A stretch of DNA of 64,000 nucleotides, from positions 9,931,857 to 9,995,856 of the forward strand of contig NC_089863.1 of the NCBI RefSeq assembly GCF_036373705.1. The letters are read 5' to 3'. Under the pieces are notes generated by a model. The model was not told the DNA's origin, made no database searches, and saw only the letters and a list, made by a program, of their open reading frames with translations. This document shows positions 12,126 through 60,279 of this stretch, piece after piece; positions within the stretch are counted from its first letter, which is position 1, and each line of letters begins with the position of its first letter. Source of the stretch: Amia ocellicauda. Taxonomy: Eukaryota; Chordata; Actinopteri; Amiiformes; Amiidae. Position numbers and translations under genes: made by a program.

Positions 12126-15100
12126 ATGTCATTGGCTGTGGACGAGACAGCGGGGGACCTGCCAGTGAGAGACGTGGGACTGAAGTGTGGGCTGATCTCT
12201 GCAGTGCAGGGTGAGAGAGAGATTACTGACTGACTGACTGATTGACACACTGCCTGACTGACTGACTGACACACTGCCTGACTGACTGACTGACTGACTG
12301 ACACACTGACTGACTGACTGACTGACTGACTGACACACTGACTGACTGACTGACACACTGACTGACTGACACACTGACACACTGACACACTGACTGACTG
12401 ACTGACATACTGACACACTGACACACTGACTGACTGACTGACTGACTGACACACTGACTGACACACTGACTGACTGACTGACATACTGACACACTGACAC
12501 ACTGACTGACTGACTGACTGACTGACTGACACACTGACTGACACACTGACTGACTGACTGACTGACTGACTGACTGACTGACACACTGACTGACTGACTG
12601 ACTGACACACTGACTGACTGACTGACACACTGACTGACTGACTGACTGACTGTTTGTGTTTAATTTCCCAGACGCAGTCAGGGAGAGACAATGGAGGAAA
12701 CCCCAGATTCTGAAGATTAAAGGTGAGAAAGAGAGAGAGCATGGGAGCGAGAGGAATATAACCCAATGTATTATTTCAGTAGTTTTCCTGCCACTTTTTA
12801 GGCCCAAACAGCAGGCAGCAGCCCAGCCCCAGCCAGCACCACAGTGTCCCACTCAGTTACCCCCGTATAGACACTCAACCCCGACCTCAACGACAGTCTG
12901 AGTTCACCAGGGACTCATACCATGACCAGCCTGTCACCCTCATTTCACCACTTAAACTCAATTTAGTGCAAAATGTAGCTGAAATGTTAAAAATAAGGTG
13001 ATTACATCAACCCAACTGTGACTGTAACCTTTGCCTTGCATTGGATATTCCATTAGTTTACCTCTCTCTCTCTTTACCTATCTCTCCCTCTCCCTCTCTC
13101 TCTTTCCTTCTGTCCCTCCCTCTCTCAGATCGCCAGCGCGTGTCTCGTGTGTCCAGGGAGCAGCTGGAGGATCAGTGCCTGAGGCTCCAGGAGGAGAAAC
13201 AGCTACTGGGACAGCACTGCAGAGCACTGGAGCGCAGGACACACAGGTAGAGCAAAGAGCTCACAGGTACAGCACAAAGAGTAAATATTAAATGCATAAC
13301 CCCTGTATTTAATGATTTCTCTCTCTCTCTATCTCTCTCAGATTGTCCACCAAGCTGCAGCGTCTGACTGCAAGCCGGGGGGGCAGCGGGGGCGGTGTGG
13401 GGGCGGCGGGGGGGCGGGAAGCGGAGCTGCAGCTGACCGTGCAGGAGCTGCGCAGTCGCGTGGCGTCCCTGGAGAACCAGCGGGAGGCGCTGAGGAGTAG
13501 ACTGAGCTTGGCCACAAAGCACTGCCTCAGCCTGGGGGTGCGCGGCCCTGGGGGGACATCCGGGCATGTCAGACAGCACCCCAAGAGTGCCCGAGGTAAA
13601 TACAGTGCAGGAGAGAGAGGATTAATACAGACACACTGACTGACTGAACACTACAGCACATTAACACTGCACTGAGAGAGAGGGTTAATACAGACACACT
13701 GACTGAACACTACAGCACATTAACACTGCACTGAGAGAGAGAGGGTTAATACAGACACACTGACTGAACACTACAGCACATTAACACTGCACTGAGAGAG
13801 AGAGGGTTAATACAGACACACTGAACACTACAGCACATTAACACTGCACTGAGAGAGAGAGGGTTAATACAGACACACTGAACACTACAGCACATTAACA
13901 CTGCACTGAGAGAGAGGGTTAATACAGACACACTGACTGACTGAACACTACAGCACATTAACACTGCACTGAGAGAGAGAGGGTTAATACAGACACACTG
14001 ACTGACTGAACACTACAGCACATTAACACTGCACTGAGAGAGAGAGGGTTAATACAGACACACTGACTGACTGAACACTACAGCACATTAACACTGCACT
14101 GAGAGAGAGAGGGTTAATACAGACACACTGACTGAACACTACAGCACATTAACACTGCACTGAGAGAGAGAGGGTTAATACAGACACACTGAACACTACA
14201 GCACATTAACACTGCACTGAGAGAGAGGGTTAATACAGACACACTGACTGAACACTACAGCACATTAACACTGCACTGAGAGAGAGAGGGTTAATACAGA
14301 CACACTGACTGAACACTACAGCACATTAACACTGCACTGAGAGAGAGAGGGTTAATACAGACACACTGACTGAACACTACAGCACATTAACACTGCACTG
14401 AGAGAGAGAGGGTTAATACAGACACACTGACTGAACACTACAGCACATTAACACTGCACTGAGAGAGAGAGGGTTAATACAGACACACTGACTGGACACT
14501 ACAGCACATTAACACTGCACTGAGAGAGAGAGGGTTAATACAGACACACTGACTGAACACTACAGCACATTAACACTGCACTGAGAGAGAGAGGGTTAAT
14601 ACAGACACACTGAACACTACAGCACATTAACACTGCACTGAGAGAGAGAGGGTTAATACAGACACACTGACTGAACACTACAGCACATTAACACTGCACT
14701 GAGAGAGAGAGGGTTAATACAGACACACTGAACACTACAGCACATTAACACTGCACTGAGAGAGAGAGGGTTAATACAGACACACTGGACACTACAGCAC
14801 ATTAACACTGCACTGAGAGAGAGAGGGTTAATACAGACACACTGAACACTACAGCACATTAACACTGCACTGAGAGAGAGAGGGTTAATACAGACACACT
14901 GACTGAACGCTACAGCACATTAACACTGCACTGAGAGAGAGAGGGTTGTACAATGTTATACAATCTTTTTCAAGGGGTCAGAGGTCAGGACAGTGACCTT
15001 GCGGTCAGGAGGTCAGCCCACACTGCTCCCCCGAGATTTGAACTGACCTCCCTGCAGGAGACAAGAGGAGAGATGGAGAGACTGTGAGTGACACAGAGAG

Positions 15101-16104
15101 AGAGAGAGGGAGAGAGAGAAAATAAGTGAGAAAATGAGAATGAATGATTGATAGTGTGATAGAGTGAATGAGTGAGAGGGAGTAAGAGTGAACAAGAGAG
15201 TGAGAGAGAGATTCAGAGATTGTTTTGTGAATCATCCTACTTATGTTCCTCCCATCCATTCCTCCTCTCCTCCTCTCTCTTCTCTCTGTGTCCAGTTACA
15301 CCCTGCTCAGGTCAGTGCCTTGTGTTGTGTTGTGTAGCATTTTTAATCCTCCTATCCTGGCCTCAGAAGCACTGTGCGACAGCTTCTATCTTCGCCCCGC
15401 AGCACTGCCTGCCTGCCTCGTGCTCCTGTTAGAGCCCAGTCACTGCTGTGCATCTGGGTAACCAACTGACTAACTATATTTAAAGTGAAACATGCCCAGG
15501 TACACACGAGTGCAAGATATTTAGTTAGAGAGGCACTACAGTAGATAGTTAGTTATCTGCAGATTCAGCTTATTCTTTCACTTCATCTATTGCAGATAGA
15601 CTGAATAATTACTGTGTGGGCATCTCTCTGCATGTCTGTCTCTGTGTCTCCCTTTTGTCTGTGTGTGTGTGTGTGTCATCAGGGCGGGGGTACAGGAAAG
15701 CCAGCGCTCTCGGGTACTGGAGCTGGAAGAGGCGGCGGAGCTCCTGAGAGAGTCGCTGAGGAGCAAAGAGCAGGAGATACAGCACAAACTGAGAGAACTG
15801 CACAAACAGCAGGCTGAGGAGCACAGGTACACACTCACACACACACACACACATATATATATAATACATGAATACGTTAAATAAGCAATTTACTCTCTCA
15901 CCATCCTTTCCCCCACGCAGAACGGTAATCAGGGAGAGTGTGGATGTGATCCGGGTGCAGAGGCAGCTGTCGGAGAAGAGCGCCGCCCTGCTGGCCCTGC
16001 AGGAGAAGTTCAAAGCCCTGCAGCAGGTCAGGGGCAGACGCACTCTTTTTCTGTCTGTCTCTTTTTAATTTATTTCTGTTACACTGTAGATGTACTCTTG
16101 ACCC

Positions 16105-16150
<46 letters not shown>

Positions 16151-19100
16151 TTTCCAGGCATACGAGAGTCAGATGGAGGAGGTAGGACTGACTGAATGAC
16201 TGACTGATTGGCTGATTTACAAAGAGTTAAACAATTTAACTCTTTAACCTCTGACCTCTGACCCTCCCCTCCCCCAGAGCGAAAGGTCCCTGAGAGAGAG
16301 TCACTCAGCCCTGCTGGAGCGAGTGGAGGAGCTGACAGAGGAGCTGAAGCAAGAGAGGCAGAGAGCGCTGGCTCTGGAGAGCGAGCTCAACACTGCCACC
16401 CTGTCGCAGTGTGGCCTGGAGGAGGTACTGCAGCCACCTCCACCATTGCACTCTGTGTTCAGGAGAGAAATGGGTCGGAATCAATGAGAACGATGACATC
16501 ACTATGTCCGTATTAACGTCTTCCCTCCCTTTCTCTCTCTCTTTCTCTCAGATGCAGGAGCGAGTCACAGCCCTAGAAGGGGAGAGAGATCTTCTGAAGG
16601 AGAGCTATGACTCTCTGCTGGAGAGGTGAAGGGAGTCAGGGGGCTCAATGACTTCATCATCCTTTATACCTCCCTCCCCCCCTCTCTCACCACAATGTCT
16701 CCCTCTCTCTTTCTCTCTCGCTCTCAGCTCTCTGGGTGTGCAGTCGCAGCAGGGTGGTGGAGTTAGGGAGCAGAAGGAGGATGGGAGAGAGGAGGAGTGG
16801 AGGCGAGGGGAGGTGTGCAGGCTGGAGGCGCGGCTGCAGGAAGAGAGGGAGGACAGAGAGAGGATGGAACAGCAGAGAGACAGGGAGAGAGGTCAGGGGT
16901 CAGTCACTTTGTGTGTCTGCGTGCATTTGTGTGAGTGTGTGTGTCTCTCTCCCTCCCACCCTGTCTCCATCTCTGTTCTGTCTCTCTCTGTAGACAAGAG
17001 TGAGTCACTAAGGGAGAAAAATGCTGCCCTGGAACAGGAAATACTGCAGAAACGTGAAGAAGTGACATCACTGCAGGAGAAACTAGACTCTATTACAAAG
17101 GTCAGAGTTCAGGTTCTGAGTAATTGACTGATATACTGACTGACTGATACACTGACTGATTGACTCTCTCTCTCTCTCTCAGGAGTTTAACATGAGTGTC
17201 GAGGAGCTCAGTGAGACTCTTCTACAGATCAAGGTAAACCCTCCTTCCTCTCACTCACTCTCTCTCTTTCTATATTCCCCTTTGATGTCAAATCTTTCCC
17301 TCTCTCAGTATGATCAGTAAATGTAGCCTCCTCCCTTTCTTACCTCCTCTCTCTCTCTCTCTCTCACCTCCTCCTCCTCTTTCTCTCTCTCTCAGTTGTT
17401 TCGGCTCCAGAGAGAGGGAGAGGAGCAACTGGATTTTCTGGAGAGGCAGGCCCCAAGGCATGCTGGGACCCTGGGGGAGCATGGGCGGAGCCATTGGGAG
17501 GCAGAGGCGGGGCATGCGGAGGCCCTGCTGGAGCTGAACAAGACCAGAGAGCTGCTGAGCCTCCAGCACCGACTCAACACTCACTGCCAGGTACTGAACA
17601 GCCCCCAACACACACTGACTCCACAGACACAGTGTGAGCACAATCTTAACACTGGGCCACTGGGTTGGAGACACAGAAAACAATAACAACACTGTATTAA
17701 CACCTCTCCCTCTCTCTCTGCCTCTTTCTCTCAGGCAGAGCTGCAGACCTTGATGGAGAGAGCGCAGAAGGAGAAGGAGGAGAGTGAGAAGAGGCTGAAG
17801 GAGAAGGACAGGCTGCTGGAGAGAAGAGCGGAGCGCATCAACACACTGCAGAGTGAGCGAGAAGGGGAGACAGGGAGAGAGACAGACAGAGAGAGAGAGA
17901 GAGAGAGAGGGATAGATGGGGCAGGATATAGTTAGAGGTGGAGAGTCTTCCTTACACTAACACCTCCCTGCCTCTCTCCCTCCCTCCCTCTCCAGCTCAG
18001 CTCAGAGAGATGGCCTACAGTCACAGGAGCTCCAGACGGGCCGTACCACCTGTCCTGGGCCCGGCGGGGGGAGGTGTGGATGGTGCCATCACCCTAGACA
18101 CCGGGGAGGAAGAAGCCATGCAGTGGCTGCTGCGGGGGGGGCAGGACTCACTGTTGGAGCTGCACCTGGGGGGGGCCACCTTCACCCCCGCCAGCCTGCG
18201 CCTGATGATGTCCGAGGTGGGGGGTCAGGGGTCGGAGGTCGTGACCTTCTGCACCTACTCCTTCCTAGACTTCGAGACCCACGCCACTCCCCTGGTGAGG
18301 GGGGGGTGTCCGGTCTACGGCTACACCTCCCGCTACCCTGTTGCCCCCAGAGACCTGCGCCTGGGGGAGGATGAGGGCGCGGGGGTGCGGGTGGAGCTGC
18401 ACCAGTCTCTGGGGGGGGTGAGGTTCTTGACCCGGGGGGCCGGCCTGATTCCGTTGAGGGAGGCGCAGCAGAGGGAGGGCGAGAGGGTGAGCGGAACAGC
18501 CAGCATCACAGGTCAGACACAGTGCAGGGGTGTGCTGTGAGTGCGCAGGGGAGTGAGTGTGTCTGTAGTGCATTAATTGTGGGGTGCAGTGATAGTGGGG
18601 TCCAGTAACAGTGGGGTGTCTGTGTTGCTCAGGATCAGACAGGGAGATCCTGGGGGTCCTGGATTACTGGGTGCGGCTGTGGCCCCCCCTGGAGCCGACA
18701 GATGAGCCAACAGACGGACTGATGGATAGACACACTGGGCCAGGGTATCTGCCCTCCTATACCCTGGGCTGGGGCGACCCCACACACCAGGTACGAGGTG
18801 GGGTAACAGGGAGAGGGACTGGGAAAACAGTGGGTAGACATTAAGTGAGTCAGTCAGTTAGTCATCTATCTCTCTCTCTCTCTCAGGGCCTATTTGACTT
18901 CTCTGGTGGAGGGGTTGCGAATGAGTTGGAGGTGCTGCTGCAGAGCTGCTGCGACCTGAGCGCCTGCCCCGGGCGGCCGGGACTCCTTCCCTGCGCCTAC
19001 GCCGCATACCGGCTGTACGACCTGCCCCCCCGAGCCACACCTGCCGCCCCGCCTTCTGCCAACCCCGCCCTGCGTGACCGCGCCCGCTACCCACTGGCAG

Positions 19101-21706
19101 TGACCCCTGACCTGCTGGCGTATCTGCGGGGGGCATGTCTGTGGGTGTACGTGTTCGATGCCTCCGCCTCCCAGTTGCCACCCCCTGCCTATCTGGGCAA
19201 GACCCCCGTGCCCCTGCGCCCCCTCGCCATGGGACGTCCGGTCACAGGTACTGAGGTGGGGGGGACTGACACAGTGATTGACAGAGTGACAGACTGACTG
19301 TCTGACTGACTGAGATACTATCTTTTTTTGCGTGTCGTGTGCTTGTCATGTGCGTGTCAGGCGAGTTCGTGCTGCGTGACGCGGTTGGGCAGCCACGTGG
19401 GACGGTTCGGCTTGCTCTGCACTGGCGCTTTCCCTTCCAGCCACAGGGGGCACCACCGAGCACAAGGCAGGAGCGCCGGGAGAGGGAGACGGAGAGAGAG
19501 AGAGCAGGAGCTGGGCAGAGACCAGTTGCCAAGCCCCGGGTAAGAGACTCAGACACATATTATTATTATTTATTAATTGGAATTAATGCCCGTGGATGAC
19601 GGATGATGTTTTCCCATTCTCTCTCTTTATCTCTCTCTCTCTCTCTCCCAGTCGAAGCTGAGCAGTGTGATTCCAGCCCAGACACACACACAGGTCTGTA
19701 CACACACACTGAAACACACACAGGTCTGTACATACACACACTCATGCATCACAACAAGAGGATACTTACAGGACTGATTTGTCTGTTTGACCTTTGACCT
19801 CCAGCCCCAGCCCCAGCCTCCTCCTTTCAGGCACAAGAGACTGAGGCGTGCCACGCCCTCCAGGTCACATGACACAGTCACACAGCCATACCCTCCTGAC
19901 ACAGTGCATGCTGGGAGAGGAGACGCTGTGACAACGGTGAGAAAGAGAGGGGAAAGAGATAGAAGAAGACAGGGAAGGAAAGGCACTGAAATAGGAATGG
20001 AATGAGAGGGGGAACGAAGGAGAATGAAGCAGGATTGGAAGCACTGAAGCAGAGAGGAGGAAGGAGGGAGTAGAAAGAGTGGGGAGGGGGGGAGACAGAC
20101 AAAGGGAGACAAAACAGGAGAGGGAGGGAAAGACTAGAGCAAGATAAAATGTGGGATAAAGACTAAATAAATGTCAACAAAGCAGTTAAAGGAGTCCTTT
20201 CTAAACCCCCACTGAGCACAGGAAGTGGTGGAGGAAGTAGCCACTGAGGAGGAGGAGGCACCACAGGAAGAGGAAGCAGAAGTCGAAGCGGAAGCCGAGC
20301 ATGCTGGGAGTAACGAGGAGGCAGAAAGTGAAAGGGGTGAGAGTGGTAAGTTGTGCGAGTGTGAGTGCATCAGTACATGTCCGTGTGTGCGTGTCAGTGC
20401 GTGCGTGTCACTGGGACTGAAATCGAGAGTATTAACTTCCTGACGTCTACCTTTAAAGCTCAATTAGACGATGACGTAATTGGCGAGTCGGGCGAATCAC
20501 GGGCCTCCACCGACAGTGATGTCATCATTGTCCCCCACCTATCAAGACCAGCTGAAAAGGTGAGAAGTCGGGAGAGAGAGATAGGCCAGATAGTGTCCAG
20601 TCAGTGTCTATTAACACCTCACTTCTCTCTATCTCTGAAGGTGGACAAGTTGAGGGTGGAGATCCTGTCCCTCAGTTTTGACCCCACCTCCCGCATCGCT
20701 CTGGACCAATCAGTGCAGCGCATCTATGTGGAGTACCGCCTCTTGGGCATTCCCATGGAGACCACAGAGACCCCGATGTCGCTACGAAAACCCACTGCTG
20801 GCGAGGAGATACACTACAACTTCACCAGAGGTCCCCGCCCCCTCTCTCTCTCTGCATGCCTATTTCAGGACTGTTTAGTTTACCACCTGTGTTCAGTAGA
20901 GAAACAGGTTGAGTCAATGCATCTGTATCAACCCCCCACACCTCTCTCTCCCTCTAATAATGTACTGTAGAATCGTGAGTAAGATACTGACAATGTATTG
21001 ACTCCCTCCCTCTCTCAGTGATCTCTGTGGACCGGGCACAGGACGTGGCACTCAGGCAGTACCTGTACACCATGCTGGAGGGAGCAGACCCCAACCAGGG
21101 CCGGTACGCAGGGAGGGGAATGGACAGAGACAGAGAAAAATAGTTATCATTGTCAATAACCTAACTCCCTCTCCTTCTCTCTGTTCTGTGCTGTGAATGG
21201 CATGTGTCTGTGCCCCCGACCCCCTCAGGTTAAAGTTCACGGTGGTCAGCGAGCCAATGGACGAGCAGGAGGAGGAGTGTGTGGATGTCGGCCACGCCCA
21301 CCTAGACCTCCAGGAAGTGCTGCTGACCGGAAGTGACATCGTGGAGCGACAGATTGACAGTGAGGGGAGACTCTCTATCACTACACCTACCTGACCCCCC
21401 CACCGCTCTCTCTCAGTGCAATGATAATGTGCTGCAGTGTCCATTCAGTGTATCTGTATTAAGCCTCTCTCTCTCTCTTTCTTTCTCTTAGTTGTCAGTG
21501 TGGAGGAGGAGGGAGAGGTGGTGGGAAAGCTGAAGGTGTCGCTGGAAGCCGCCCAGACACTGACTGGGATATACTGGGAGTACAGGAGCCGAAGAGAGGA
21601 AGGGGGAGAGGGGGAGGAGAGAGAGAGGGAAGGGGAGGAAGAGGAGGGGGAAGAGGAAGAAGAAGCCAAACAGGCTTCACACCAGGAAGATGACGATGAC
21701 TTTTAA
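12126..21706 (+). CDS. rpgrip1: RPGRIP1, RPGR-interacting ciliary scaffold protein
   Basis: Exons: 12126-12210, 12672-12722, 13129-13246, 13342-13595, 14975-15083, 15296-15310, 15683-15826, 15921-16026, 16158-16181, 16278-16424, 16552-16625, 16728-16891, 16994-17100, 17183-17233, 17396-17590, 17735-17852, 17996-18511, 18633-18790, 18887-19247, 19361-19539, 19652-19693, 19805-19936, 20222-20345, 20459-20559, 20641-20830, 21019-21103, 21229-21359, 21492-21706. They sum to 3996 nt (1331 aa), all in frame. The N-terminus (DETAGDLPVRD) matches the RPGRIP1/RPGRIP1L start. Coiled coils fill residues 30-590. A C2 domain follows at about 590-810, a second at 815-990, an acidic linker, then the RPGR-interacting C2-like domain at 1125-1300 (SLRKPTAGEEIHYNF, LKFTVVSEPMDEQ). 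The family anchors RPGR at the photoreceptor connecting cilium and transition zone. RPGRIP1 is preferred over RPGRIP1L from the adjacent SUPT16H and the SDVIIVP segment. Confidence 0.92.
12228..12652. repeat. (TGAC)n/CACAC compound satellite in RPGRIP1 intron 1
   Basis: About 425 bp are made of ACTG tetranucleotides interrupted by ACACACTG and a few ACATACTG. It fills almost all of intron 1. The same CACACTGACTGACTG motif is a part of the 56-64 bp unit arrayed at 13.6 and 58 kb. Long Ser/Val/Gln minus-strand frames across it are artefacts of the repeat. Confidence 0.95.
12800..12960 (+). repeat. Dispersed repeat, copy 1 (RPGRIP1 intron 2)
   Basis: The stretch from CAGCCCAGCCCCAGCCAGCA to CTGTCACCCTCATTTCACCA is closely matched, in the same orientation, at about 21820-21990 beyond the end of the same gene. 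Shared landmarks are CCCACTCAGTTACCC, ACCTCAA..ACAGT and the terminal GTCACCCTCATTTCACCACT. Confidence 0.75.
13605..14947 (+). repeat. Minisatellite array, about 23 copies, acceptor-type unit in antisense
   Basis: Units of roughly 55-65 bp read GAGAGAGAGGGTTAATACAG, then ACACACTGACTGAACACTAC, then AGCACATTAACACTGCACT. They repeat about 23 times with small length differences in the ACTG part. The array begins just after the donor of RPGRIP1 exon 4 (13596) and nearly fills the intron. Read on the opposite strand, each unit has TATTAAC, a CT tract and CAG. In this gene the array is therefore antisense and offers no decoy acceptors. Confidence 0.97.
15296..15310 (+). other. rpgrip1: Candidate 15-nt microexon of RPGRIP1
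   Basis: A TCCAG acceptor and a CAG/GTCAGT donor bracket 15 nt that keep the frame (adding Tyr-Thr-Leu-Leu and completing an Arg codon). Splicing around it is also in frame, so it could be optional. It is supported only by splice signals. Confidence 0.5.
16108..16144. repeat. (CT)n polypyrimidine tract, RPGRIP1 intron 8
   Basis: A perfect CT dinucleotide run lies just before the acceptor of the 24-nt exon at 16158. Comparable CT runs precede most RPGRIP1 exons. Confidence 0.85.
20585..20640 (+). repeat. Diverged acceptor-type repeat copy at an RPGRIP1 3' splice site
   Basis: AGTGTCCAGTCAGTGTCTAT and then TAACACC, a CT-rich run and GAAG lead directly into exon 20641. The order matches the minus-strand reading of the array unit (TGTAGTGTTCAGTCAGTGTG, then TCTGTATTAACCC, CT tract, CAG). 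Confidence 0.7.
21425..21491 (+). repeat. Acceptor-type repeat copy forming the last RPGRIP1 3' splice site
   Basis: AATGTGCTGCAGTGTCCATT, then CAGTGTATCTGTATTAAGCC and a CT tract ending TTAG, run straight into the last exon at 21492. This matches the array unit in its non-CT half as well as its CT half, in the sense direction. Confidence 0.8.
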
Positions 21707-21819
21707 TACCACTCAAACACTCTCTCTCCCTGACCCTCAGAAAGACACCCATCATTCTCACAATTTCACCAAAAACATGTAGATTCTCTCTGTATTACAT
21801 CAGTGGGGAACCTGCCCAA

Positions 21820-21990
21820 ACTGCAGCCTGAAGCCCAACCCCAGCCAGAGCCAGCGCCAGTGTCCAGTCAGGCCCCTACAGAGCCAAATCCCACTCAGTT
21901 ACCCAGTAGAGATGCAGCCCTGACCTCAATTACAGTTCACTGGACCCTGACCCAGCCCAGAAAACTGTCACCCTCATTTCACCACTAAAA
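21820..21990 (+). repeat. Dispersed repeat, copy 2 (RPGRIP1 3' UTR)
   Basis: This is the partner of the 12.80-12.96 kb copy, with the same order of landmarks. It lies between the RPGRIP1 stop codon and its AATAAA, so it is probably transcribed in the 3' UTR. Confidence 0.75.
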
Positions 21991-22073
21991 TATAGATTCA
22001 TTACAGACAATCCTACTCTGTAAACAACCTAAATGTGACCGTTAGACCAGTCCTACGTTCATCTGTGTCCCTA

Positions 22074-22079
22074 AATAAA
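22074..22079 (+). terminator. rpgrip1: Poly(A) signal AATAAA of RPGRIP1
   Basis: A canonical AATAAA lies 368 bp after the RPGRIP1 stop codon. The next gene on this side (SUPT16H) runs towards it on the other strand. Confidence 0.65.
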
Positions 22080-23538
22080 ACTGACCATTGGAGAATTGTA
22101 TTTCTTTATTATCCCCCCTCCTCCCCCTGACCTTAAACATCCAAATCTTCAGTTCAATCATAACAATGAGCCCAACACCTATTCACAATCTTTATTATCT
22201 TTATTCTGAACTCCCACACAGTATACATAAAGTGCACACACACTCAACACTGTCAGTCCAGACAGACACACAATAACACAGACTGCACACTGACACACAA
22301 CTGCAGTGATTACAATACGAGCACACGCTGAACAACACACACACGTCATTCAGTCAATAATAGTTAAGCTAGTTAAGTGTTAGTCCCATTTCTCCCAGGA
22401 TATTTCTTTCTGGTTTTCCACTGAACTTGGCCTCACCAACTGCACCACCTCAAGACAGCCACAGTGAGGCACCATCAGAAAACCTGACTTCACCCCACAA
22501 CCCTGACAGTATAAGAGCCCAGACTGGAGAAAGAAAGGAGAGTCTCGGTGTACATTTTAAATTTTTTTTTTTTTTATTACAAAAAAAAAACAAAAACATA
22601 GAACAAAACAATCTCAGAATCAACAACAAGTCTAACAGCCCTGGGGTAGAGACACCAGAGAGGGGGGTTAGCAAGTGTGTGTGTTTGTGTGTGTGGGCTG
22701 TCCCAGGTGGGCAGTGATTCTCTGGGTTGACCCTTTCGGTTTGTCTGTCATCAGTGCTCCTTCAAGAGACCCCCCATTGGCACAGTCGACACAAACCTGT
22801 ATTCCAGTGTCGTCACCACCATAACACAAAGTAGACGGAGGGAGGGAACGAGAGAGAGAGAGAGAAACACTGTAGCACAAACATGGGCCTGACCTTTCCA
22901 AACCACTCCTTCTCCCTCTGAGCTGCCCCCCCCAACCCACCCCATCCCAGACGGGGATGCGCTCACCCACCCCCAACTCCAGAACACAATTTTGAAGCAT
23001 GACAGGAGGGGGGGGGAAGGAAGTAAAGGGGAAGAGCGACTATTTTAAACGCTAAAATAATGATTTTTGTTTCATTTTCTTTAAAAATGCAACAGATTTC
23101 ACGAAATCAAATAAAAACACAAGAGCTCCCGACAGCCCCCCCATCCCAGTCCAGGATTCACTGCCATCAACATCTGCAATCCTCTCATAACCCCCCTCCC
23201 TCCCTCCCGCCCTCCCTCCCTCTTTTCCCCCCCTCTCCATCTCTCTCTCCACAAGCATTGGGAGTGAAAAAAAAAAAAAGGAAGGAATGAATTCAGAGAG
23301 AGATGGAATGGGACCTCAGTGTCAGTGCGTGTATGTATCAGTGTGTGTGCGCATGAGTCTATTGTACAGAAATTGCCGGTCTGTCCGTCTGTCTATACTA
23401 GACATCTGTCCGAGTGCGTCGACACAGTGTGTGTAAAACTCTAATCTCTGCATCGGTCGGTCAGTGTGTCAGTCGATTTGTCTCTGTGTGTGTGTCAGTG
23501 TGCGCGCGCGTCTATATACAGGGTGCATCTCTCTCACT
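22080..23538. other. Convergent RPGRIP1/SUPT16H intergenic and 3' UTR region
   Basis: No coding exon is seen. On the minus strand, TTTATT at 22573-22578 (AATAAA on the minus strand, beside an A-rich run) is a candidate SUPT16H poly(A) signal, giving a 3' UTR of about 0.96 kb. Another lies at 22105-22110. Poly-T/A runs occur at 22561-22590 and 23267-23279. Confidence 0.5.
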
Positions 23539-31406
<7,868 letters not shown>

Positions 31407-33560: not shown

Positions 33561-33566
33561 TTTATT
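33561..33566 (-). terminator. tox4: Poly(A) signal of TOX4 (AATAAA on the minus strand)
   Basis: TTTATT on the plus strand lies about 870 bp past the TOX4 stop codon in the direction of transcription. It is the likely 3' end, making 33.57-34.44 kb the 3' UTR. Confidence 0.5.
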
Positions 33567-34437: not shown

Positions 34438-36971
34438 TTAGGTGACGGTGGTGGTCGAGCCCTGTCCTCGCAGGGAGCACCAGGCCATGAAGATATCCCT
34501 GAAAAACACAACCGAGAGGAACCGTGAGACACACAACTCGGTGAGCGAGTGTCGGTGGGTGTGGTGCGTCAGTTCTGTGTCTGTCAGTACACACCAGCAG
34601 TGTGTCTGCCATTTGTTAGTGTGCATGTGTGGTGTGTGTCAGTACTCACCAGCCGTGCGTGTGTTGTGTCAGTACATACCGGCAGGGCGTGTGTCAGTGT
34701 GTGCGGGTCAATGTGTGCGTCAGTATTTGTGTGTTGTGTGTCACTATGTGTACGTATCAGCGTGTGGTGTGCATCAGTTCTCACCGGCAGTGCGTGGCGA
34801 CACACTCGTTGCTGCAGTATTCGCGGTCCCAGTCCTTGCTGTCCACGGGGGGGTTGGTGCAGCCAGCACGCACACAGCGGCTGGGGGGCGGTGAGGGGGC
34901 CTCCTCCTGTGGGGGGGACACGCTCAGCTCCACCTCCATCTGAAGGAGGGACAGAGTCGATACACCGTTTGACCGACTGGACACCACAGCACACGGATAC
35001 ACACCGTCACAGACTCACACGTTCAGACTAACACACACACACACACCCCTCCCGACCCCCGTACCGCTCCAGCCGTGAACTCTTCCGCCTCCTGGGCCTC
35101 CTCGGCGGCTGAGGGGGAACAGGCGGACTGCGCCACCTCCACGGCCATGGCGGGGGGAGAGGCGACGGAGGAGGCAGGGCCTGCCGCCTGAACGACGGTG
35201 ACGGGGGCGGTCCCGGCCGACGAGGTCACGATGATGGGCGCGGCTAGCTCCGCCTGCAGGGGGGCGGGGACGATCTTGATCTGCAGGGGCGGGGGCGGGG
35301 CCGTCGTCACCGAGACCGCCATCCCGGCTCCGCCCCGGGGCTTGGCCTGCAGAGGGGGCGGGGCCTGGGAGTGCACCATCTGCTGGAGGCGGGGGGGAGG
35401 GGGCTGCTGCATCTGCTGCAGCGGGGGCGGCTGGCTCAGCATGGGTGGCCGGCTGGGCCCGGTCACCACCGTGGAGGCGCCGGCGGCGGACAGGGCCGGG
35501 TTCTGCTGCAGGATTCGGGTGGCCGGGATCACCGTGACCACGGAGGTGGGGATCTGGTGGCCCGAGCCGGCCAGCATCTGTTTGGAGATGATGATCTTGG
35601 TGACGGTGGGGGGGTGGGCGGCCGCGGCGCTGACGGAGGGCTGCAGGGGGGGCGCGGAGGACTGCAGGGAGGCGGCGCCGGGGCTCTTGCCGGCAGTGAG
35701 GCTGGGGTGCGCCCCGGTGCGGGAGCGCGTGATGACCTGGGGGTGGTCCAGGATAATGTTGGAGGTGCAGATGTTGGTGATGGTGTTCTGGTTGGGGGCG
35801 TTGTGCGGGATGCGGGGGGAGCGCAGGGGCGCTGGGGGCGGGGCAGCCTGGGGGATCGGCACTGGGGGGGGAGGGGAAGGTTCGGTGTCCATGACTTCGA
35901 TCGTGGTCTGGGGAGAGAGAGGGAGAGAATTTGAGAGAATTATTTCTAAACAATGGCTATTTTATGCCCCTTTTCCAAGCTGAGCTGGCCTGGCATGGAT
36001 CGGGTGTGTACGCTGTGAATGCTGAGTCACGCTGAAAGATAGTCGGGTTTTTCAGATGACAACAATGCAGTTGCTTGAGTGTGTGGTTGTCCTCATAATT
36101 GTCTTATTATTTTTTACTATATGGGAATGAAAACCAACTGGCCCAGCAACCAAACTGTAACAGTGAACCTGCAAGCATTAACATACATTAAAACTTTCTC
36201 AAATACGACAAACAACATTTGAAAGACTGTAACGACACTTTAATTTCTATGTTAAGCTATAGTATCGTTTAGTCATTGAACCCTGATAATATGGAGTATT
36301 TCAGCATGCACTGGAACAGTGTCTATATAAAAATTATGGATAAATATATCAATCTATATATAACATTGTAAAAATAATATTAGCCTTTAACAGAAGAGTC
36401 TAAAACGCTTAATGTAGAAATCGTAGAAATGTGGCTTACTGCACATAAAATGTAACCATTATATCCAAACTTCTCAAATTACAAGACTGACACCATCCAG
36501 GCTGATAAATCAAAGACTTATGTTTAAAGTGATATAAAAAGCATAAGTATCTTGTGTAGCGCTTAAGGTTGAACGCACTTGGTTTGCTTTATTGTTTAAC
36601 ATTGATATTGAATGTTAAGTCAAATTGGTTATTGACAATAATAATTATCTTATCTTAAACTGTCTCCATATTTTATTGGTAACATTAGGATTACAAACTT
36701 TGGATTACAAAAGTAATGGTTATGTTTAAGCACATGAAGGTACGTTACACGATACATAAGCGAGTGTCTAAAATGCTTTTGATGTTGTAAAATAACATTC
36801 AGGTCGAATGTCATTAAAACTAAATATCAATTGTCAATACTAACGTGTACTCTTTCGATATAATGACATTTGAGTACAATTAAATATCCTTCCCTTGTAG
36901 ATTTGACCTGTATTATTTGTTTACTTGTACGAATAACTGCTTGAAGAATCCATTAAAAACTTGTCTAACCA

Positions 36972-37007
<36 letters not shown>

Positions 37008-39942
37008 TTGTGAGAAATCGACTCGGGGGGGGGGGGGGAAGGGAAGGCTATACATTTTCTAAGCTTTGTTATTTCAAAAGCTGTGCTGCAACACACAAAT
37101 GTTATGTAATTAGTAATTAAAAAGCTATCAGTGTTTACTGTTATAAATAAACAAACATATACATCATGAGACGCCAGAGAACCAGTTTAAAATAAATAAA
37201 TAAATAAATAAATAAATAAATCGGATGTTGGAGATTAAAGACCTAACTTTACAGATGAAGAAGGGCAATCGCTCGAAGCGATAACTGATTAATTTAAACT
37301 CGTTGTGTAGATCAATCCTACAATTCTTTTTACCAGTATATAGATAGCAGTAGTAGATTGTTAAGTATTTGTGGTGTATTTTATTAATCTATTAAGTATT
37401 TGTAATGCATTTAGACCTAGTAATCGGGCAGGCTGACGCTAGTGAAGATGAGTTCAGTTAACTCCTCCCCCGGCATGGCTCAGCCCTAGGTAAGGAGCAG
37501 GGCTGAAAATCCACAGCCTGGTTCTGGGTCAGATCGTCAAAATTGCCAGTGGGTAACGTGCCAAGCCGAGCCGCGCCGGCCTGGTTACGGCACAGATATA
37601 TACCGGTGGAAAAGGGGGTATTAGACACACTCCAATCAGTAATATCCCATTTCCACTAGCCACGAACAGGTGCAACTAACATTTGCTTGCAGGCTTTCCA
37701 CTCACATTGTCGTGAGGTAAAGCCGGCCTGGGATGTGAATTACACGAAAGGTCAAAACGCATCCTGGGACCCTCTGCATTCTGGGATTTAGTGTTTAAAA
37801 CTGTAGGCTGAAATACCTTTAACATTAAAGTGCAATACACTTTGGACTGAAAACGTTTTTACAATATCTAACAGATATTCAAAAGAAGAAACCGGGACAA
37901 ACGTATTTATATAACAAATGACATCACTTAAAAACATGATAGTATTTGTCCAAACATTTAGTGTTAATGTTGACGTATCTGCTCCCGTTTCATCTAGTTT
38001 ATTTTATAAAAGAGCTGATAAAAATAAACGAGTATTACTTCTCCCTGTATCATGATCCGATTTACATTGACAATATAGCTTAACTTAAGTATCCGATATA
38101 GTTTCCTTATTATTAATCTGCCGGATAATTAACTGCTGTGCATTATTAAATACAGTACCTGTGTGTTAAATCTGTCCCATGTAGCCACTTAGCATCATGA
38201 AATATACAGTCACAGCCTATATATGTAGTTTCTTAAGAACAACTCAGACATGTATATAAAAATACAGCTACAACACTCTGGGATCCATAACTTACTTTTC
38301 ACAAATTCGGTATTAGCTTTATTACCCTGTATAATCTACATAAGCTTAATCAATGTCGCTAAATAAATGAATCGCATCAATAACATGCGCGGCATCAACT
38401 TTTATTTTGTCTGGGATTCATTTACAGAAGACCCTGTACTGACACGGTAATTAATGGATTATGCACTGGTTTTATTAATCACTGCTGTCAAGGTAGTGAT
38501 GTATTTCTACAGTCGGTAAAGCGTCTATACTAGGATTACCATTATGCTAGTAGTAGTATACATATAGTTCGCGATAATGAGGGTTTACAAATTAAAATAT
38601 TCGCTTCTTCATGCAATTGATCACATAAAACATGCAGGCTTTTATTTTTAATTTTTTACAATTAAAAAAAAAAACTTTTAAAAGAGTGTCAACAGGGGAA
38701 AGCTAAAAACTTGGGACATTTAAACTATTTTGAGATAATTTACAAGATATCGCGACATTTAATTTAAGGCCAGGACATATGGTCATCATAGTCTTTCATG
38801 TTTGCGTGTATTTATAAAAATAAAAGTGAATATTTTGTCCCGGCACACTGTATTGCAGTCCTCTATCCAGCAGGATTTTCGTGATCTTTTCAAACACTTC
38901 TCAATGTCTCACTGCTCCAAGCAATTGATCCTGTGTGGCACTTTCCATCTACATTTCAGTGGCTAGTGGAAATGGGGCATTAGTCCAGTAGTCTCTTAAA
39001 TAAAGGTCAGGGTTCAATTCCACTGGGGACTCTGACCTGACCCTGACCTTCATTTAAAACACAAATAATGTTTCATAGTGGAAATGGAAGTTAAATTAGT
39101 CCAATCGACTCATAAGCAAAGATTTATCAGTCGAGTAAACTTATACCTATATGTACTGCAAGTCTGGCTGCCCCCCAGAGCGCAGGATTGGCTGACGCCT
39201 CTCACCTGAGACAGCTGATTGGCTCGGTAGGCTGCGAGTGCTTTCAGATACTCCTTCTTAGCAGCTTCTGTCTTTCGCTTGTACACCTGAGAAAGAGAGA
39301 GAGAGAGCAAAGGGACAGTGAGAGTTTAATACAGATACACTAAATGGGCACCGAACAGACCGAGGGACAGAGAGTGAGAGAGAGAGACAGACATATCCCC
39401 AGCCTCTCTACCTGTTTCTGCTCCTCTCCCAGGCTGTCCCACATGGAGGCCACGATCTTGGACACCTCCCCGAAGGTGGCGTTGGGGTTCTGGCCCTTGA
39501 TGGCCGCCTGCGTGTCCCTGAAGAACAGCGCGTAGGCCGAGACGGGCTTCTGCGGCTCGTTGGGGTCTTTCTTCTTCTTCCCCTTCTTCCCCCCGCCGCC
39601 GCCTCCCCCGGCCCCTCCCGCTCCTCCTCTGCGCAGGCCGCCGGCCGTGAGGGAGGGAGGCGGGGGGTGGACGTGGCCGGCGGAGGAGGAGGGGACGGAG
39701 GACGAGGACAGGGAGAGGGCGGAGGTAGCAGCGACGGCGTCCCCCACAGGGCTGAGAGAGATGACAGCCGGGGAGACGGACACTGGGGACTCCACCAGCA
39801 CCCGCTTCTCACACTGTGGAGAGAGAGAGAGGGGTTAGTAAAGATATGGTGACTGGACACTACAGTACATTGACACTGAGAGAGACTGACAGATAGACAC
39901 AGTAAAGAGAGAGAGAAGGACAGCGAAACAGGGAGACGGTAA

Positions 39943-39975
<33 letters not shown>

Positions 39976-43393: not shown

Positions 43394-43502
43394 AAAGTAA
43401 AATAAAAAAAAGGAATGGATCGATTTAGAAGCATCAGCGACACTTCACTGTATCCGGCTGCTGGGTACAGATCCACGTTTATTACGAACTTTCGAGAGGG
43501 GG

Positions 43503-43558
43503 GCTCGGCTCGGCTCGGCTCGGCTCGGCTCGGTTCGGGTCCGGTTCGGTTCGGGTGC
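43503..43558. repeat. (GGCTC)n pentanucleotide repeat near the distal TOX4 exon
   Basis: Tandem GGCTC units pass into GGTTC variants. They lie inside the distal TOX4 first intron, about 40 bp past the donor. Confidence 0.85.
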
Positions 43559-43599
43559 TGGGTGGGCGAGTCGGGGATCGCGACCGGTTCCTCCCTTAC

Positions 43600-43605
43600 C
43601 TCCAT
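43600..43605 (-). other. tox4: Distal alternative first coding exon of TOX4 (Met-Glu)
   Basis: On the minus strand ATGGAG is followed at once by a canonical donor, GTAAGG. Splicing in phase 0 to the exon at 41208 gives Met-Glu-Phe-Pro-Gly-Gly, which matches the start of mammalian TOX4. The resulting protein would be 733 aa. It lies inside a CpG-rich promoter-like block. The six-base coding exon is supported by splice signal, phase and similarity to the mammalian start. Confidence 0.7.
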
Positions 43606-43679
43606 CGCCGCTCTCAGTCCAGTCGCTGTGCCCGGTCCGCTTCCTCGATCACAACATTACAGAACATGGCACCGGCTTC

Positions 43680-43740
43680 CGGGTTTCCCCGCCGATTCCG
43701 GGAAGTGACGTCACTGGGAGCCTTCTTCCACTTCCTGTGC
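43680..43740 (-). promoter_or_regulatory. CpG-rich promoter with CRE and ETS-like motifs
   Basis: A perfect palindromic CRE, TGACGTCA, lies at 43706-43713, directly after GGGAAG (an ETS-like core) and near TTCCGGGTTTCC. It sits about 100 bp upstream of the distal TOX4 Met-Glu exon, the usual layout of a housekeeping promoter. Confidence 0.6.
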
Positions 43741-43833
43741 TTCTGCCCTCCCCCGACGCATCATCATCGTCAACAGCGCATGTGCAGAACGAAAGCGTGT
43801 TACAGTGTATGTGTGTATGGAGGGCCAGGTTAA

Positions 43834-55004
<11,171 letters not shown>

Positions 55005-57560
55005 GGCTCTAGTCGTTGTCTTGCTTGGTCCTTGGTGGTTGAGACTGTTTTATTCCCTCCTTTCGATGTATTTTTCAATGAAAAATAACGTATTTCTTCC
55101 CTCTCTCCTCGTCTGTGACTCTTTTTGTTTCAGTTTCTTGGTTGTTTTTTCCTTCTGACCTTTAAGTTTCCCTTCTGCTTTTTCTCGCCTCTCGACGTTT
55201 TCTTGTTTTCCCTTTTGTCATATATTAACTTCTCTCTCTCTCTCTCTCCCCTCTTTTGTCAGTGTTCTGTATTAATATTCGGCTGTGCCCGTGCAGCCCT
55301 CTGTGTCTGTGTGAATTGGACGGTATGTCTCATACTTGTTTTGATATTATCTTAAGAGAGAAAAATGTCTCACTTGTGAAACGCGTTGTTTTGATATGTA
55401 TGTTGCCTGAATACCCCAAAAGCTCCCCGTTTGCACAACAATGCAGTCAAACCGCAGGGCAGGATGCGTGTGCCTCGTGATTGGGAGTAGGCCCCAAAGT
55501 TATCGCCGGCTGCTGTTCATATTGTTCCTCCGAGATATTATCTCCAACAACAGACACCAGGAAGTGGGTTGATTTTGGGTTTGAAATGTGGAATTTGATC
55601 CAATTTCAGAGTTTAAAATAGAGTTCAATATTTAGGCGTACATACATGCTCCTTCAAAATAGTACTGCACTGTACTAAGTAGGCTAATGTCCATTACATA
55701 GAGAAATAATCCAAGTCTGCAAAGTCACATGATCACAAACATCATAATACTGAAGGTCTGCTTGGCTTTCATAATAATACGACTGGACACGCTTCATTTC
55801 AATAAGTTATTATATTAATAATAATAAATAATAAACTTAAAAATAACCTTCAAGGCAAACAAACGTATGTTATTGCAGTATTGAATGTTGGCCCTCGAAT
55901 CCCACTAACGGAATGTACTGTTTTGTAAAGTTATAATGTTAAGAAATAATACAGCGCAAAACAATACCCACGGGTGTATTAGTATGCATCTATACTAATG
56001 CAGTATATATCTCCGAATCACCATTACTTCACGTACAGAAAGAACAGGCGATTAATATTAAATCCCTTTTTAGGCGCAGGAGACACGCATACACACATAC
56101 TTTAGGTGCACGTATTATTAATATTATACTGCTGCTGTTGTATTGGCAATGTCATTTTTGGCATGTTCTGGACCCTAGGAGATGGTGCGGTTTAACCCGG
56201 GTAGATGTTTAAATACTGACCGTGCCTGCAGCTCTCTCCCTCTCTCTCTCTCTCTCTCGGTGCAATAATTACCCAAGAGCGGTTCGGGCCAGTTTGGTGT
56301 TGTTGTGAGGTGCGGAGGCGTGAGGCAGGATTTTCAGCAGCTACGTCGCGTATAAAAGGAGAGACGGACAACACGTCTAGAGAGCTAGGTAGACAGACAG
56401 CTATTCTGGCTAATTCATTGCAAGGTGCGTAAAGACAGGCTGATGCAGGACAGGTAGCTCGGCATGCACAAAGTGCAGAAAGAGAGAGGGAGCGACAGAC
56501 AGGTAGAGATGCACGACGCAGACTCTCGATGGAGAGGCGGTGTATTTCTAGAAGCTGTCCTAAGCCGTATTAGTCGGCCGTGTCTTGCAGTGGAGTCACG
56601 GATGCTTATCCCCGGTGTGTGTCCCACCCCACCTAACTCCCTGTCCTATCCGGTCCCGGTGGCCGATCAGGACCGCAGAGCCCCGCACCGCCCGAGCCCA
56701 GCACACGTGTGCGGGAGTCGCGCGCCCAGGGGTCGGGAAGCGCACCGCACGCACAGACACGCAAACACGCACAGCAGCCCCCGTCCCGTCCCGTCCCGTC
56801 CCAACCCCACCACCAACAAAAGGTTATCCTGTGGTAGCAGTGGTGTCACGCACGTCTACCGGTCTAGCTACACCAACACAGCGAGGAGAAAGGACATAGC
56901 TACTACCCCCCACCCGTGAATCCCGTCCTGGGCTGCGGGTGTCTGTGCGTCAGTTCTCCGTGTGGAGTAAGGTCTCCTCCCGGGTCCCCTTATAATAGAT
57001 GTCCGAGCCCCGGTCAGCGCTTCCCCGCTCCGCTGTGCGTGCGACACCGCTGGCCCCGCCTCGGTTCTCCTCTCGCTTGCGCCTCTGCGTGGCGCGCATG
57101 CGTTGAAGGGGAAAGAGACGGGTGCATCATGGGAGATGGAGTTTTGTTCCAGAGCGTACCCCGCATCGTTACACATCAAACACAGGAACACCTGAATAGA
57201 AGTCCACACCTTCAACACGCCTCTCTGCCGATACATGTGCATCAGCCAGCTCGGAGGCGAAGATATATACAGATACGTTGCGCACACAACACAGACAACA
57301 GGAGTTCGAGGACAATGTGTGATGTCCGTGGACCCCCACTAGAAACCTGCTGCTCCGGCACCCGCTCACCACACACCAAGAACGAAACAGGAGGCGGGGA
57401 GAGGAGCATGCTGGGAAATGGACAGGACACACTCACCTTTGTTGTCATGTTCCATGTGTGCATCTCGTTCAGCATGAGCCTGCGTGTTTGTACACGTGTG
57501 TGTGTGGATATGAGACGGAGAGAGAGACTGAGACTCAACCCGACAGAGCCAGGGGGACAC
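55005..57560. promoter_or_regulatory. SLC12A6 upstream region with a CpG-rich block
   Basis: The 55.0-56.2 kb part is AT-rich and empty. At 56.6-57.1 kb the sequence becomes CpG-rich, with an NRF1-like GCGCGCATGCG at about 57092-57102. This could be an upstream promoter of SLC12A6 or the distal flank of NOP10. A plus-strand TATAAAAG lies at about 56351. No protein-like frame is recognised. Confidence 0.4.
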
Positions 57561-57589
57561 AGAGATCAAGGCCAAGTTCCAGAAACACA

Positions 57590-57595
57590 TTTATT
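57590..57595 (-). terminator. nop10: Poly(A) signal of NOP10 (AATAAA on the minus strand)
   Basis: TTTATT on the plus strand lies about 290 bp past the NOP10 stop codon in the direction of transcription, a fitting 3' end for a short housekeeping mRNA. Confidence 0.7.
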
Positions 57596-57887
57596 GCTGC
57601 AGATCCACAGGTGACAATGACACAGGAATCTGTACAATGCAAACAGTACAACAACTCAAAAAATTAAAAATAAACAGAGACTGTACACAAAATGGCAGCA
57701 GTGTGATCCCACTGAACACAGCTAGTACACCGACTGCTGTGTGTGTGTTATTGGTGTAGCTGGGTGACACAAAGTTGAGGTTGCCATTTTACAGTAAGTC
57801 CGTGTTGGTGTCAGAACTGGGCCGGAATGGGCTGTGAGTCCAGGAGACAGTGCGGATGATTTCAGGTCGGGTCAGAGCCAGGCCATG

Positions 57888-60279
57888 CTACAGGACGGGC
57901 CGGGGCTGCTGGGTGAGCAGGAGTCCGAAGCGCTTCTTGACGGTGACCCGGTGCCGGGAGAACTTATCATCCGGGGAGAACCGGGCCGGGTGGGCCGAGC
58001 TGGTGGGCTGACCTGTCAGGTCCAGCTTCTGAGATAGAGAGTGAGAGAGAGAGAGAGGGTTAATACAGACACACTGACTGACTGAACACTACAGCACATT
58101 AACACTGCACTGAGAGAGAGGGTTAATACAGACACACTGACTGAACACTACAGCACATTAACACTGCACTGAGAGAGAGAGGGTTAATACAGACACACTG
58201 ACTGACTGAACACTACAGCACATTAACACTGCACTGAGAGAGAGAGGGTTAATACAGACACACTGACTGAACACTACAGCACATTAACACTGCACTGAGA
58301 GAGAGAGGGTTAATACAGACACACTGACTGAACACTACAGCACATTAACACTGCACTGAGAGAGAGAGGGTTAATACAGACACACTGACTGACTGAACAC
58401 TACAGCACATTAACACTGCACTGAGAGTGAGGGTTAATACAGACACAGTGACTGAACACTACAGCACATTAACACTGCACTGAGAGAGAGGGTTAATACA
58501 GACACACTGAACACTACAGCACATTAACACTGCACTGAGAGAGGGTTAATACAGACACACTGAACACTACAGCACATTAACACTGCACTGAGAGAGAGAG
58601 GGTTAATACAGACACACTGACTGACTGAACACTACAGCACATTAACACTGCACTGAGAGAGAGAGGGTTAATACAGACACACTGACTGAACACTACAGCA
58701 CATTAACACTGCACTGAGAGAGAGAGGGTTAATACAGACACACTGACTGAACACTACAGCACATTAACACTGCACTGAGAGAGAGGGTTAATACAGACAC
58801 ACTGAACACTACAGCACATTAACACTGCACTGAGAGAGAGAGGGTTAATACAGACACACTGACTGACTGAACACTACAGCACATTAACACTGCAGAGAGA
58901 GAGAGGGTTAATACAGACACAGACTGGACACTACAGCACATTAACACTGCACTGAGAGAGAGAGGGTTAATACAGACACACTGACTGAACACTACAGCAC
59001 ATTAACACTGCACTGAGAGAGAGGGTTAATACAGACACACTGAACACTACAGCACATTAACACTGCACTGAGAGAGAGAGGGTTAATACAGACACTGACT
59101 GAACACTACAGCACATTAACACTGCACTGAGAGAGAGAGGGTTAATACAGACACACTGACTGACTGAACACTACAGCACATTAACACTGCACTGAGAGAG
59201 AGAGGGTTAATACAGACACACTGACTGAACACTACAGCACATTAACACTGCACTGAGAGAGGGTTAATACAGACACACTGAACACTACAGCACATTAACA
59301 CTGCACTGAGAGAGAGAGGGTTAATACAGACACACTGAACACTACAGCACATTAACACTGCACTGAGAGAGAGAGGGTTAATACAGACACTGACTGAACA
59401 CTACAGCACATTAACACTGCACTGAGAGAGAGAGGGTTAATACAGACACACTGAACACTACAGCACATTAACACTGCACTGAGAGAGAGAGGGTTAATAC
59501 AGACACACTGACTGAACACTACAGCACATTAACACTGCACTGAGAGAGAGGGTTAATACAGACACACTGAACACTACAGCACATTAACACTGCACTGAGA
59601 GAGAGAGGGTTAATACAGACACACTGAACACTACAGCACATTAACACTGCACTGAGAGAGAGAGGGTTAATACAGACACTGACTGAACACTACAGCACAT
59701 TAACACTGCACTGAGAGAGAGAGGGTTAATACAGACACACTGAACACTACAGCACATTAACACTGCACTGAGAGAGAGAGGGTTAATACAGACACACTGA
59801 CTGAACACTACAGCACATTAACACTGCACTGAGAGAGAGGGTTAATACAGACACACTGAACACTACAGCACATTAACACTGCACTGAGAGAGAGAGGGTT
59901 AATACAGACACACTGACTTTTTTGCTACATTGTTGCTACTTTTACCACACTAATACCACTACTACTAATAGCCGTATGTTTTTAGTGTCGGTCTTAACTT
60001 TTGCTTGACTTGTAGCGCTCTGGGTATGAGAACAGTGCGTTATAAATACAATGTAACATTACTACTATTGAAGCTCTAAGACTGCTGCTACTACAAGGAT
60101 AACGGTAATTGCTACTACAACCACAACTCAAAATAAAGTTACTACTACTACATATTCTCCCTCTTACACCACACTAATATTAATAATAGCATCAGTGAGA
60201 TGAGATCTGATTGCAGAGGCCTTACCTTCAGCGTGTAAACTCTGTCCCCATTCTCGTTCAGGTAAAACTGCAAAAACAT
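57888..60279 (-). CDS. nop10: NOP10, H/ACA ribonucleoprotein subunit 3
   Basis: Two minus-strand exons, 60226-60279 (18 codons) and 57888-58028 (46 codons plus stop), give a 64-aa protein, the same length as human NOP10. Recognisable landmarks are [18 protein letters not shown] at the start, the linker [17 protein letters not shown], and [16 protein letters not shown] at the end. NOP10 binds dyskerin with NHP2 and GAR1 in H/ACA snoRNPs, which pseudouridylate RNA, and in telomerase RNP. As in other eukaryotic NOP10 proteins, no zinc-binding cysteines are present. The single intron (58029-60225) is mostly a minisatellite whose last unit forms the 3' splice site. Position upstream of SLC12A6 on the same strand matches human 15q14. 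Confidence 0.97.
58045..59920 (-). repeat. Minisatellite array, about 32 copies, acceptor-type unit in sense, NOP10 intron
   Basis: The unit is the same as in the 13.6 kb array, repeated about 32 times with 53-64 bp periods. Relative to NOP10 it runs in sense, so each copy presents TATTAAC, a CT tract and CAG. The last copy (58029-58062) is the actual acceptor of exon 2. The copy-to-copy differences are mainly how many ACTG blocks and GA pairs each has. Confidence 0.97.
59925..60140. mobile_element. Possible LINE 3' tail beside the NOP10 array
   Basis: TGTAGCGCTCTGGGTATGAG then GTGCGTTATAAATACAATGT resembles the 3' end of L2-like fish LINEs. Only the tail is present. Confidence 0.4.

Follow-up and report, generated by a model that had tools for sequence, protein, structure and literature searches.

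A minisatellite unit resembling a 3' splice site stands in sense at intron ends of unrelated genes in Amia ocellicauda

According to the general view, branch points and acceptors evolve in situ, and intronic minisatellites and satellites are known as locally homogenised tandem arrays of variable repeat number. Two described systems bring repeats and splice sites together. First, the "mirages" of amphioxus (in the Adh3 and globin genes) are minisatellites made from intron/exon boundaries within single genes, according to the accessible text of PMC3087553. Second, introners create introns, some families bringing only the 3' splice site, and the accessible text of the introner survey (PMC9860276) reports no pattern of introner gain in vertebrates. 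Among the intron-gain mechanisms listed in the accessible portions of PMC12124190 and PMC3443670, the transfer of an acceptor alone does not appear. Here, we describe a repeat unit found in sense at the acceptors of five unrelated genes in a 64,000-nucleotide stretch of Amia ocellicauda DNA (C20:9931857-9995856, hereafter the window, the numbering of which is used unless a contig or locus is named), which was followed by searches and at sampled sites in the genome (988 Mb, 385 contigs). We propose, with a probability of about 0.55, that this unit is an acceptor-carrying minisatellite, i.e. a portable 3' splice site of about 60 bp, which has been copied in sense into the 3' ends of old introns in many genes.

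The unit (53-65 bp) comprises, in that order, a core, a TATTAAC motif, a CT tract and CAG. CAGTGCAGTGTTAATGTGCTGTAGTGTTCAGTCAGTGTGTCTGTATTAACCCTCTCTCTCT is the commonest array unit, read in the CT direction, and the length varies with the numbers of CAGT and of CT. The window contains two arrays of the unit, both as described in the original prediction, which had been made from the letters of the window. The array at 13611-14947 (about 22 units of 53-65 bp, with the CT strand minus) starts about 15 nt past the donor of RPGRIP1 intron 2 and is antisense to its host gene, which lies on the plus strand. The array at 58029-59918 (about 31 units, minus strand) is in sense and takes up the 3' portion of the NOP10 intron, where its last unit is predicted to supply the TATTAAC motif, the CT tract and the CAG of the acceptor at 58028. 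These tandem arrays of variable number, with units within 10-100 bp, are minisatellites. Their units contain a splice boundary, as the tandem units of mirages do, and like introners they carry at least one splice site, namely the TATTAAC motif, CT tract and CAG lying at the acceptors predicted by the gene models. The Rfam scan of the window returned no family at the gathering score, and the exact unit pattern had no match in bacterial/archaeal and viral contigs.

The gene models built from the sequence comprise SUPT16H (25 exons), TOX4 (9 exons), SLC12A6 (24 exons, excluding a region of micro- or alternative exons at about 46300-46960), NOP10 (2 exons) and RPGRIP1 (26 exons, without the 5' end), which together define 81 GT-AG introns with a median length of 132 nt and contain no internal stop. 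SUPT16H and SLC12A6 (KCC3) were identified by comparison with PDB chains, while NOP10, TOX4 and RPGRIP1 are presumed names, in line with the original reading. In these models, the unit occurs in sense at acceptors of all five genes, on both strands. On the plus strand, RPGRIP1 has one full copy at 21414-21491, ending at the acceptor of intron 25 (56 bits, of which the core alone gives 26.5), a single copy at 20591-20640 at that of intron 22, and two diverged tandem units at 20892-21018 (16.5 and 8.3 bits), the second of which reaches that of intron 23. On the minus strand, SUPT16H has a single copy at the acceptor of intron 20 (24803-24886) and partial copies at those of intron 7 (28090-28123, with 27 nt of the branch-point/CT end) and intron 4 (29104-29129). 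TOX4, on the same strand, has single copies at the acceptors of intron 7 (34940-34993) and intron 4 (39814-39878; 35 bits, core 25.9) and a partial copy at that of intron 5 (39287-39351). SLC12A6, also on the minus strand, has single copies at the acceptors of intron 9 (50920-51008) and intron 5 (52747-52841), a shortened copy at that of intron 1 (53787-53831), and a short tandem of diverged units running up to that of intron 13 (49625-49865). The copies in TOX4 intron 7, RPGRIP1 intron 23 and SLC12A6 intron 13 were absent from the original list. All 13 acceptor coordinates of that list coincide with acceptors of the gene models, and at 20641, 21492, 24802, 39813, 50919, 52746 and 53786 a copy is seen even without the branch-point motif and the CT tract. 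The copies at 28089, 29103 and 39286 consist mostly of the branch-point/CT end (positions 35-61, 39-61 and 24-56 of the 61 of the model). The "weaker" copies previously announced at 16552 and 17735 amount to a TATTAAC motif plus a CT tract, features possible at any acceptor, and they were not counted.

The following lines of evidence indicate that these acceptors have more in common than a CT tract and a branch-point consensus. First, when the TATTAAC motif, the CT tract and the CAG were cut from the model and its 40-nt core was retained, matches of at least 10 bits occurred in sense in 8 of 79 introns (counts that exclude the two array introns), with 22-63 nt between the end of the match and the 3' splice site in every case, and in antisense in none of the 79; dinucleotide shuffles gave 0.125 in sense and 0.05 in antisense. 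At 8 bits, there was one antisense match versus 0.28 in the shuffles, and at 5 bits, 10 introns matched in sense and 5 in antisense (several of these being ACTG repeats) versus 1.6 and 1.4. Second, in the whole window outside the arrays, 8 of the 12 core matches of at least 9 bits have a same-strand acceptor no more than 75 nt away (p = 3e-8 for a null of 5.4%). The remaining four are two ACTG-repeat matches and two pieces of a cluster of three diverged unit pieces (10542-10703, minus strand), which lies outside every annotated intron. Third, a model-free comparison of the masked ends of 80 introns yielded, of 3160 pairs, 30 in sense and 8 in antisense at a score of 13, and 0.4 after a shuffle that retains base composition only. 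Fourth, among the 216 CT tracts of at least 12 nt, the core stands just upstream in 7 of the 46 located at acceptors and in none of the 170 located elsewhere (p = 1.4e-5). Thus, the strand bias at acceptors and the persistence of the similarity once the CT tract is masked, on which the original prediction had made itself depend, were both found in the window.

These core-only and masked tests rule out chance or the convergence of CT tracts. They also show that the spread of CT repeats combined with selection, which had been put forward as the alternative, is insufficient alone, as the core signal survives masking and accompanies 7 of 46 acceptor tracts versus 0 of 170 others. It is scarcely credible that each acceptor duplicated itself independently, leaving a likeness made only of the shared CT tract and branch-point consensus. 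Such births do occur, as an RNF31-like intron possesses a self-derived acceptor array, but the genes have the 40-nt core in common after masking, and C20 array units from different genes agree at about 99% of positions.

The extent of the similarity and the age of the introns bear on whether the unit makes introns. Among the 11 unit-bearing introns, 17 of the 55 pairs of 3' ends score at least 13, whereas none of the 55 pairs of 5' parts reaches 11 (a weak result for the 6 of 11 introns with a 5' part below 30 nt). For the downstream exon stretches, a score of 11 is reached by one pair of 55, so these exons are unrelated between genes. Hence, the similarity does not span the intron and was found at its 3' end only. 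Regarding age, the matches of three KCC paralogues start within 1.3-2.3 amino acids of the position of SLC12A6 intron 5, the match of an RPGRIP1-like gene on C9 is interrupted at introns 23, 24 and 25, and those of the TOX paralogues (C2, C4 and C9) are interrupted at TOX4 intron 5. Four host introns (SLC12A6 intron 5, RPGRIP1 introns 23 and 25 and TOX4 intron 5) therefore have counterparts at the same position in paralogues on other chromosomes. These positions are taken from match ends and are precise to within a few residues, and RPGRIP1 intron 23 and TOX4 intron 5 carry weaker members of the family. Judging from these comparisons, the four introns checked predate the repeat, and no new intron at a new position was seen among these four, which are those with informative paralogues.

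A mobile element that makes introns and brings their 3' splice site, i.e. an introner, would agree with a unit that has a 3' splice-site-like sequence and is common to unrelated genes in sense. We nevertheless regard this explanation as very improbable, because four unit-bearing introns occupy paralogue-shared positions, no similarity was found in the 5' parts of the introns or in the exons, and the copies most alike cluster in domains of about 1 Mb. The unit has in common with introners, as presented in the accessible text of PMC9860276, that a repeat family with a splice site occurs in many genes; it differs in that introners make introns, whereas the introns tested here are old and are affected at their 3' ends only. 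From the original wording, "introner-like or acceptor-exchange", we thus retain the acceptor exchange and abandon the making of introns.

The amphioxus mirages are the nearest precedent for an acceptor-carrying minisatellite. Like our unit, they are boundary-bearing minisatellites with splice signals in many units, homogenised within clusters and hosted by a chordate; in contrast, a mirage duplicates the gene's own boundary, including exon, whereas a single family here extends over many unrelated genes (PMC3087553, accessible text). The unit does not correspond to a host gene's own boundary with its exon: neither a flanking exon matching it nor a founder gene was found, although it may have originated as a mirage in one gene. 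A classical mirage is present in the RNF31-like intron mentioned above, with 19 listed tandem copies of the intron's own acceptor plus about 10 first exon bases (L047:715-1350, i.e. C20:9181315-9181950). Unlike ordinary intronic minisatellites, our unit has a strong tendency to end at sense acceptors, its last copy being placed as the acceptor. The novelty of an acceptor-transferring repeat is based on literature searches: in the titles and the beginnings of abstracts, such a family was undescribed apart from the mirage paper, which is not proof of absence.

Among the matches listed by BLAST and pattern searches, arrays of the unit occur on both strands of C20 between 9.02 and 10.09 Mb, once at 2.65 Mb and once on the unplaced C333; all 62 exact unit matches fall within C20 9.02-10.09 Mb or C333. 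When the two window arrays are included, 11 of the 19 resolved C20 array 3' ends lie within about 60 nt of a same-strand exon-like open frame (10 of 17 outside the window), which corresponds to p = 6e-10 for the window null of 5.4%, a value softened by five frames without a match. In this count, the unclear L027 and L029 are scored among the eight ends off acceptors, and the array ends L036 and L052, where the sequence read stops within the array, are excluded. A database match supports 5 of the 11 frames (adh_short, TINF2_N, CBM_21, RIPK3 and the NZF finger of the RNF31-like gene), and the other six are NOP10 and five open frames alone (that of L034 by eye); we take array neighbours on C20 to be DHRS4, PPP1R3, RNF31 and a LIM protein. 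Two further single copies precede exons in L047 (10 kb, RNF31-like gene) and one does in L024. With the unit model, two 8-kb stretches of C20 (at 9.30 and 10.50 Mb) gave best E values of 0.18 and 0.34, and a broader copy model gave no match up to E 1 in the control stretches, its three matches all lying in L047, within the C20 domain. L047 also contains, at 8201-9344 (C20:9188801-9189944), a 1.1-kb TGTGTCAGTCTGTCAG-type minisatellite similar to the CAGT stretch of the unit, and the exon downstream of it is presumably IRF9-like.

The array units of C20 and C333 (12 arrays) show 0.36 differences per core of about 38 nt between loci and 0.18 within loci, as calculated from equal-length pairs only, with the CAGT number collapsed and some units skipped by the parser. 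The C20 array units are thus about 99% identical between unrelated genes, and their copying or homogenisation is therefore recent; the single copies are more diverged. If transfer were mediated by RNA, with an excised intron or acceptor RNA entering other genes by reverse transcription or reverse splicing, one would expect the sense orientation and a preference for transcribed introns. However, the clustering of array subfamilies in domains of about 1 Mb suggests exchange in cis at the DNA level, and one array is antisense, so that we hold this route to be quite improbable.

The family extends to other chromosomes, as seen with diverged copies used as queries (searches that report the best-scoring candidates only). 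The copy of RPGRIP1 intron 25 retrieved four non-self places with 78-92% identity. Of five copies examined on other chromosomes, three run into an exon-like frame, two of them with a protein-family match. At C21:1.384 Mb, the copy is followed by a CT tract, CAG and a Choline_transpo exon (2e-11); at C1:63.58 Mb, the matched stretch is directly followed by a CT tract and CAG, then by a WD40 exon; and at C18:20.077 Mb, the copy leads to a CT tract and CAG, after which comes an ATG-containing open frame, an exon that is less certain as it has no family match. No recognisable exon was seen in the parts read at C18:24.79 Mb and at C1:60.70 Mb, where two diverged units lie. The C21 copy used as a query retrieved, among the matches listed, the C20 arrays together with clusters that lie on both strands at C18:19.05-20.08 Mb, where the matches are longer, and at C1:61.47-62.70 Mb, where most cover the core only and stand about 31-35 bp apart; other diverged copies match C7. 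A purely regional C20/C333 family is ruled out by these relatives on C1, C18, C21 and C7. As to density, the best E value of the unit model was 0.52 in 14 random 10-kb stretches of other contigs (140 kb) and 0.29 in 10 stretches close to myosin exons (two on C20 and eight on other contigs). Copies are considered rare outside the domains because the control sequence gave no good match.

The main rival explanation, which we find unlikely though it deserves serious weight, is that the repeat spread without targeting, in both orientations, and that the sense copies near acceptors were retained as working splice signals while the others decayed. It accommodates the C20 array ends (8 of 19) and the other-chromosome copies (2 of 5) that are off recognised acceptors, the antisense array and the cluster at 10542-10703 outside annotated introns. 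Conversely, the core upstream of the branch-point motif persists at acceptors and at none of the 170 other CT tracts, and the random stretches of 14 other contigs (140 kb) contained nothing below E 0.5. To our knowledge, the core upstream of the branch-point motif corresponds to no known splice signal.

As regards the copying of a portable 3' splice site into old introns, it is worth considering the distance from the TATTAAC motif to the AG, which is 14-70 nt (median 27, n = 29) in acceptor copies and 10-14 nt (n = 28) in the internal units of the NOP10 array. The former list includes weak members (SUPT16H introns 3 and 15 and RPGRIP1 introns 8 and 13) and the first copy of L047, the exact AG of which is uncertain, and it leaves aside TOX4 intron 7 and SLC12A6 intron 5, which have no recognisable motif. 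The CT tracts of acceptor copies are also longer and more mixed than those of internal units. We infer the route of entry, the amplification and the splice use as follows. The unit would replace or extend the native branch-point/pyrimidine region of an existing intron, possibly entering by ectopic recombination or template switching in the pyrimidine tract; because every acceptor offers such a tract, entry there would fix the position and the strand of the unit. Unequal exchange may then expand it locally into arrays that would be homogenised within domains of about 1 Mb. The internal units, with their 10-14 nt spacing, may be poor acceptors, and the last unit, presumably lengthened by the leftover native CT tract, would be the one used.

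Several observations weigh against this proposal. Eight of 19 C20 array ends, including the antisense array, and 2 of the 5 copies examined on other chromosomes are away from a recognised acceptor; one array, at C20 2.65 Mb, lies outside the domain; and about 163 kb of control sequence from other chromosomes gave nothing below E 0.29, which implies a low density there. SUPT16H intron 4 and L023 have acceptor copies with the short spacing of internal units, and the AGs and branch points of the unit-bearing introns are predicted ones. Lastly, as the core is present at none of the 170 non-acceptor CT tracts, CT homology cannot be the whole cause. Acceptors might exert an extra draw (through the shared branch-point motif and AG, transcription or open chromatin), or copies elsewhere might have been lost.

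A wider claim, to which we would give somewhat less than even odds, is that the unit represents a new kind of parasite or passenger, an acceptor-colonising repeat that replaces 3' splice-site regions, so that the splice signals of different genes share a recent ancestry and are exchangeable within a domain. If one family supplies branch points and acceptors to many old introns, splice signals are transferable between genes, which would open a route to boundary shifts, alternative acceptors and concerted splicing change in gene clusters. The natural series from the single copy to the tandem and to the 31-unit array offers a test of how the spliceosome chooses among near-identical AGs.

Other features of the window are as follows. 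SUPT16H intron 22 has, in its upstream half, a weak diverged unit in a permuted register (24320-24372, minus strand), in sense and away from the acceptor. In SLC12A6, intron 23 contains near its acceptor another short tandem, seen by eye, with a CT tract and CATCAGTTATTC (45409-45551), which is perhaps another acceptor-derived minisatellite, and intron 6 contains a pyrimidine-rich minisatellite of about 54 bp with CT on the gene strand (52106-52536). Upstream of RPGRIP1, 6462-7391 encodes an AIG1/GIMAP-type GTPase frame (PF04548, 1.9e-27). An unbroken frame of 346 amino acids for a Tc1/Tc3-type transposase (HTH_Tnp_Tc3_2, DDE_3) occupies 8191-9231, between inverted ends seen by eye near 8041 and 9265.

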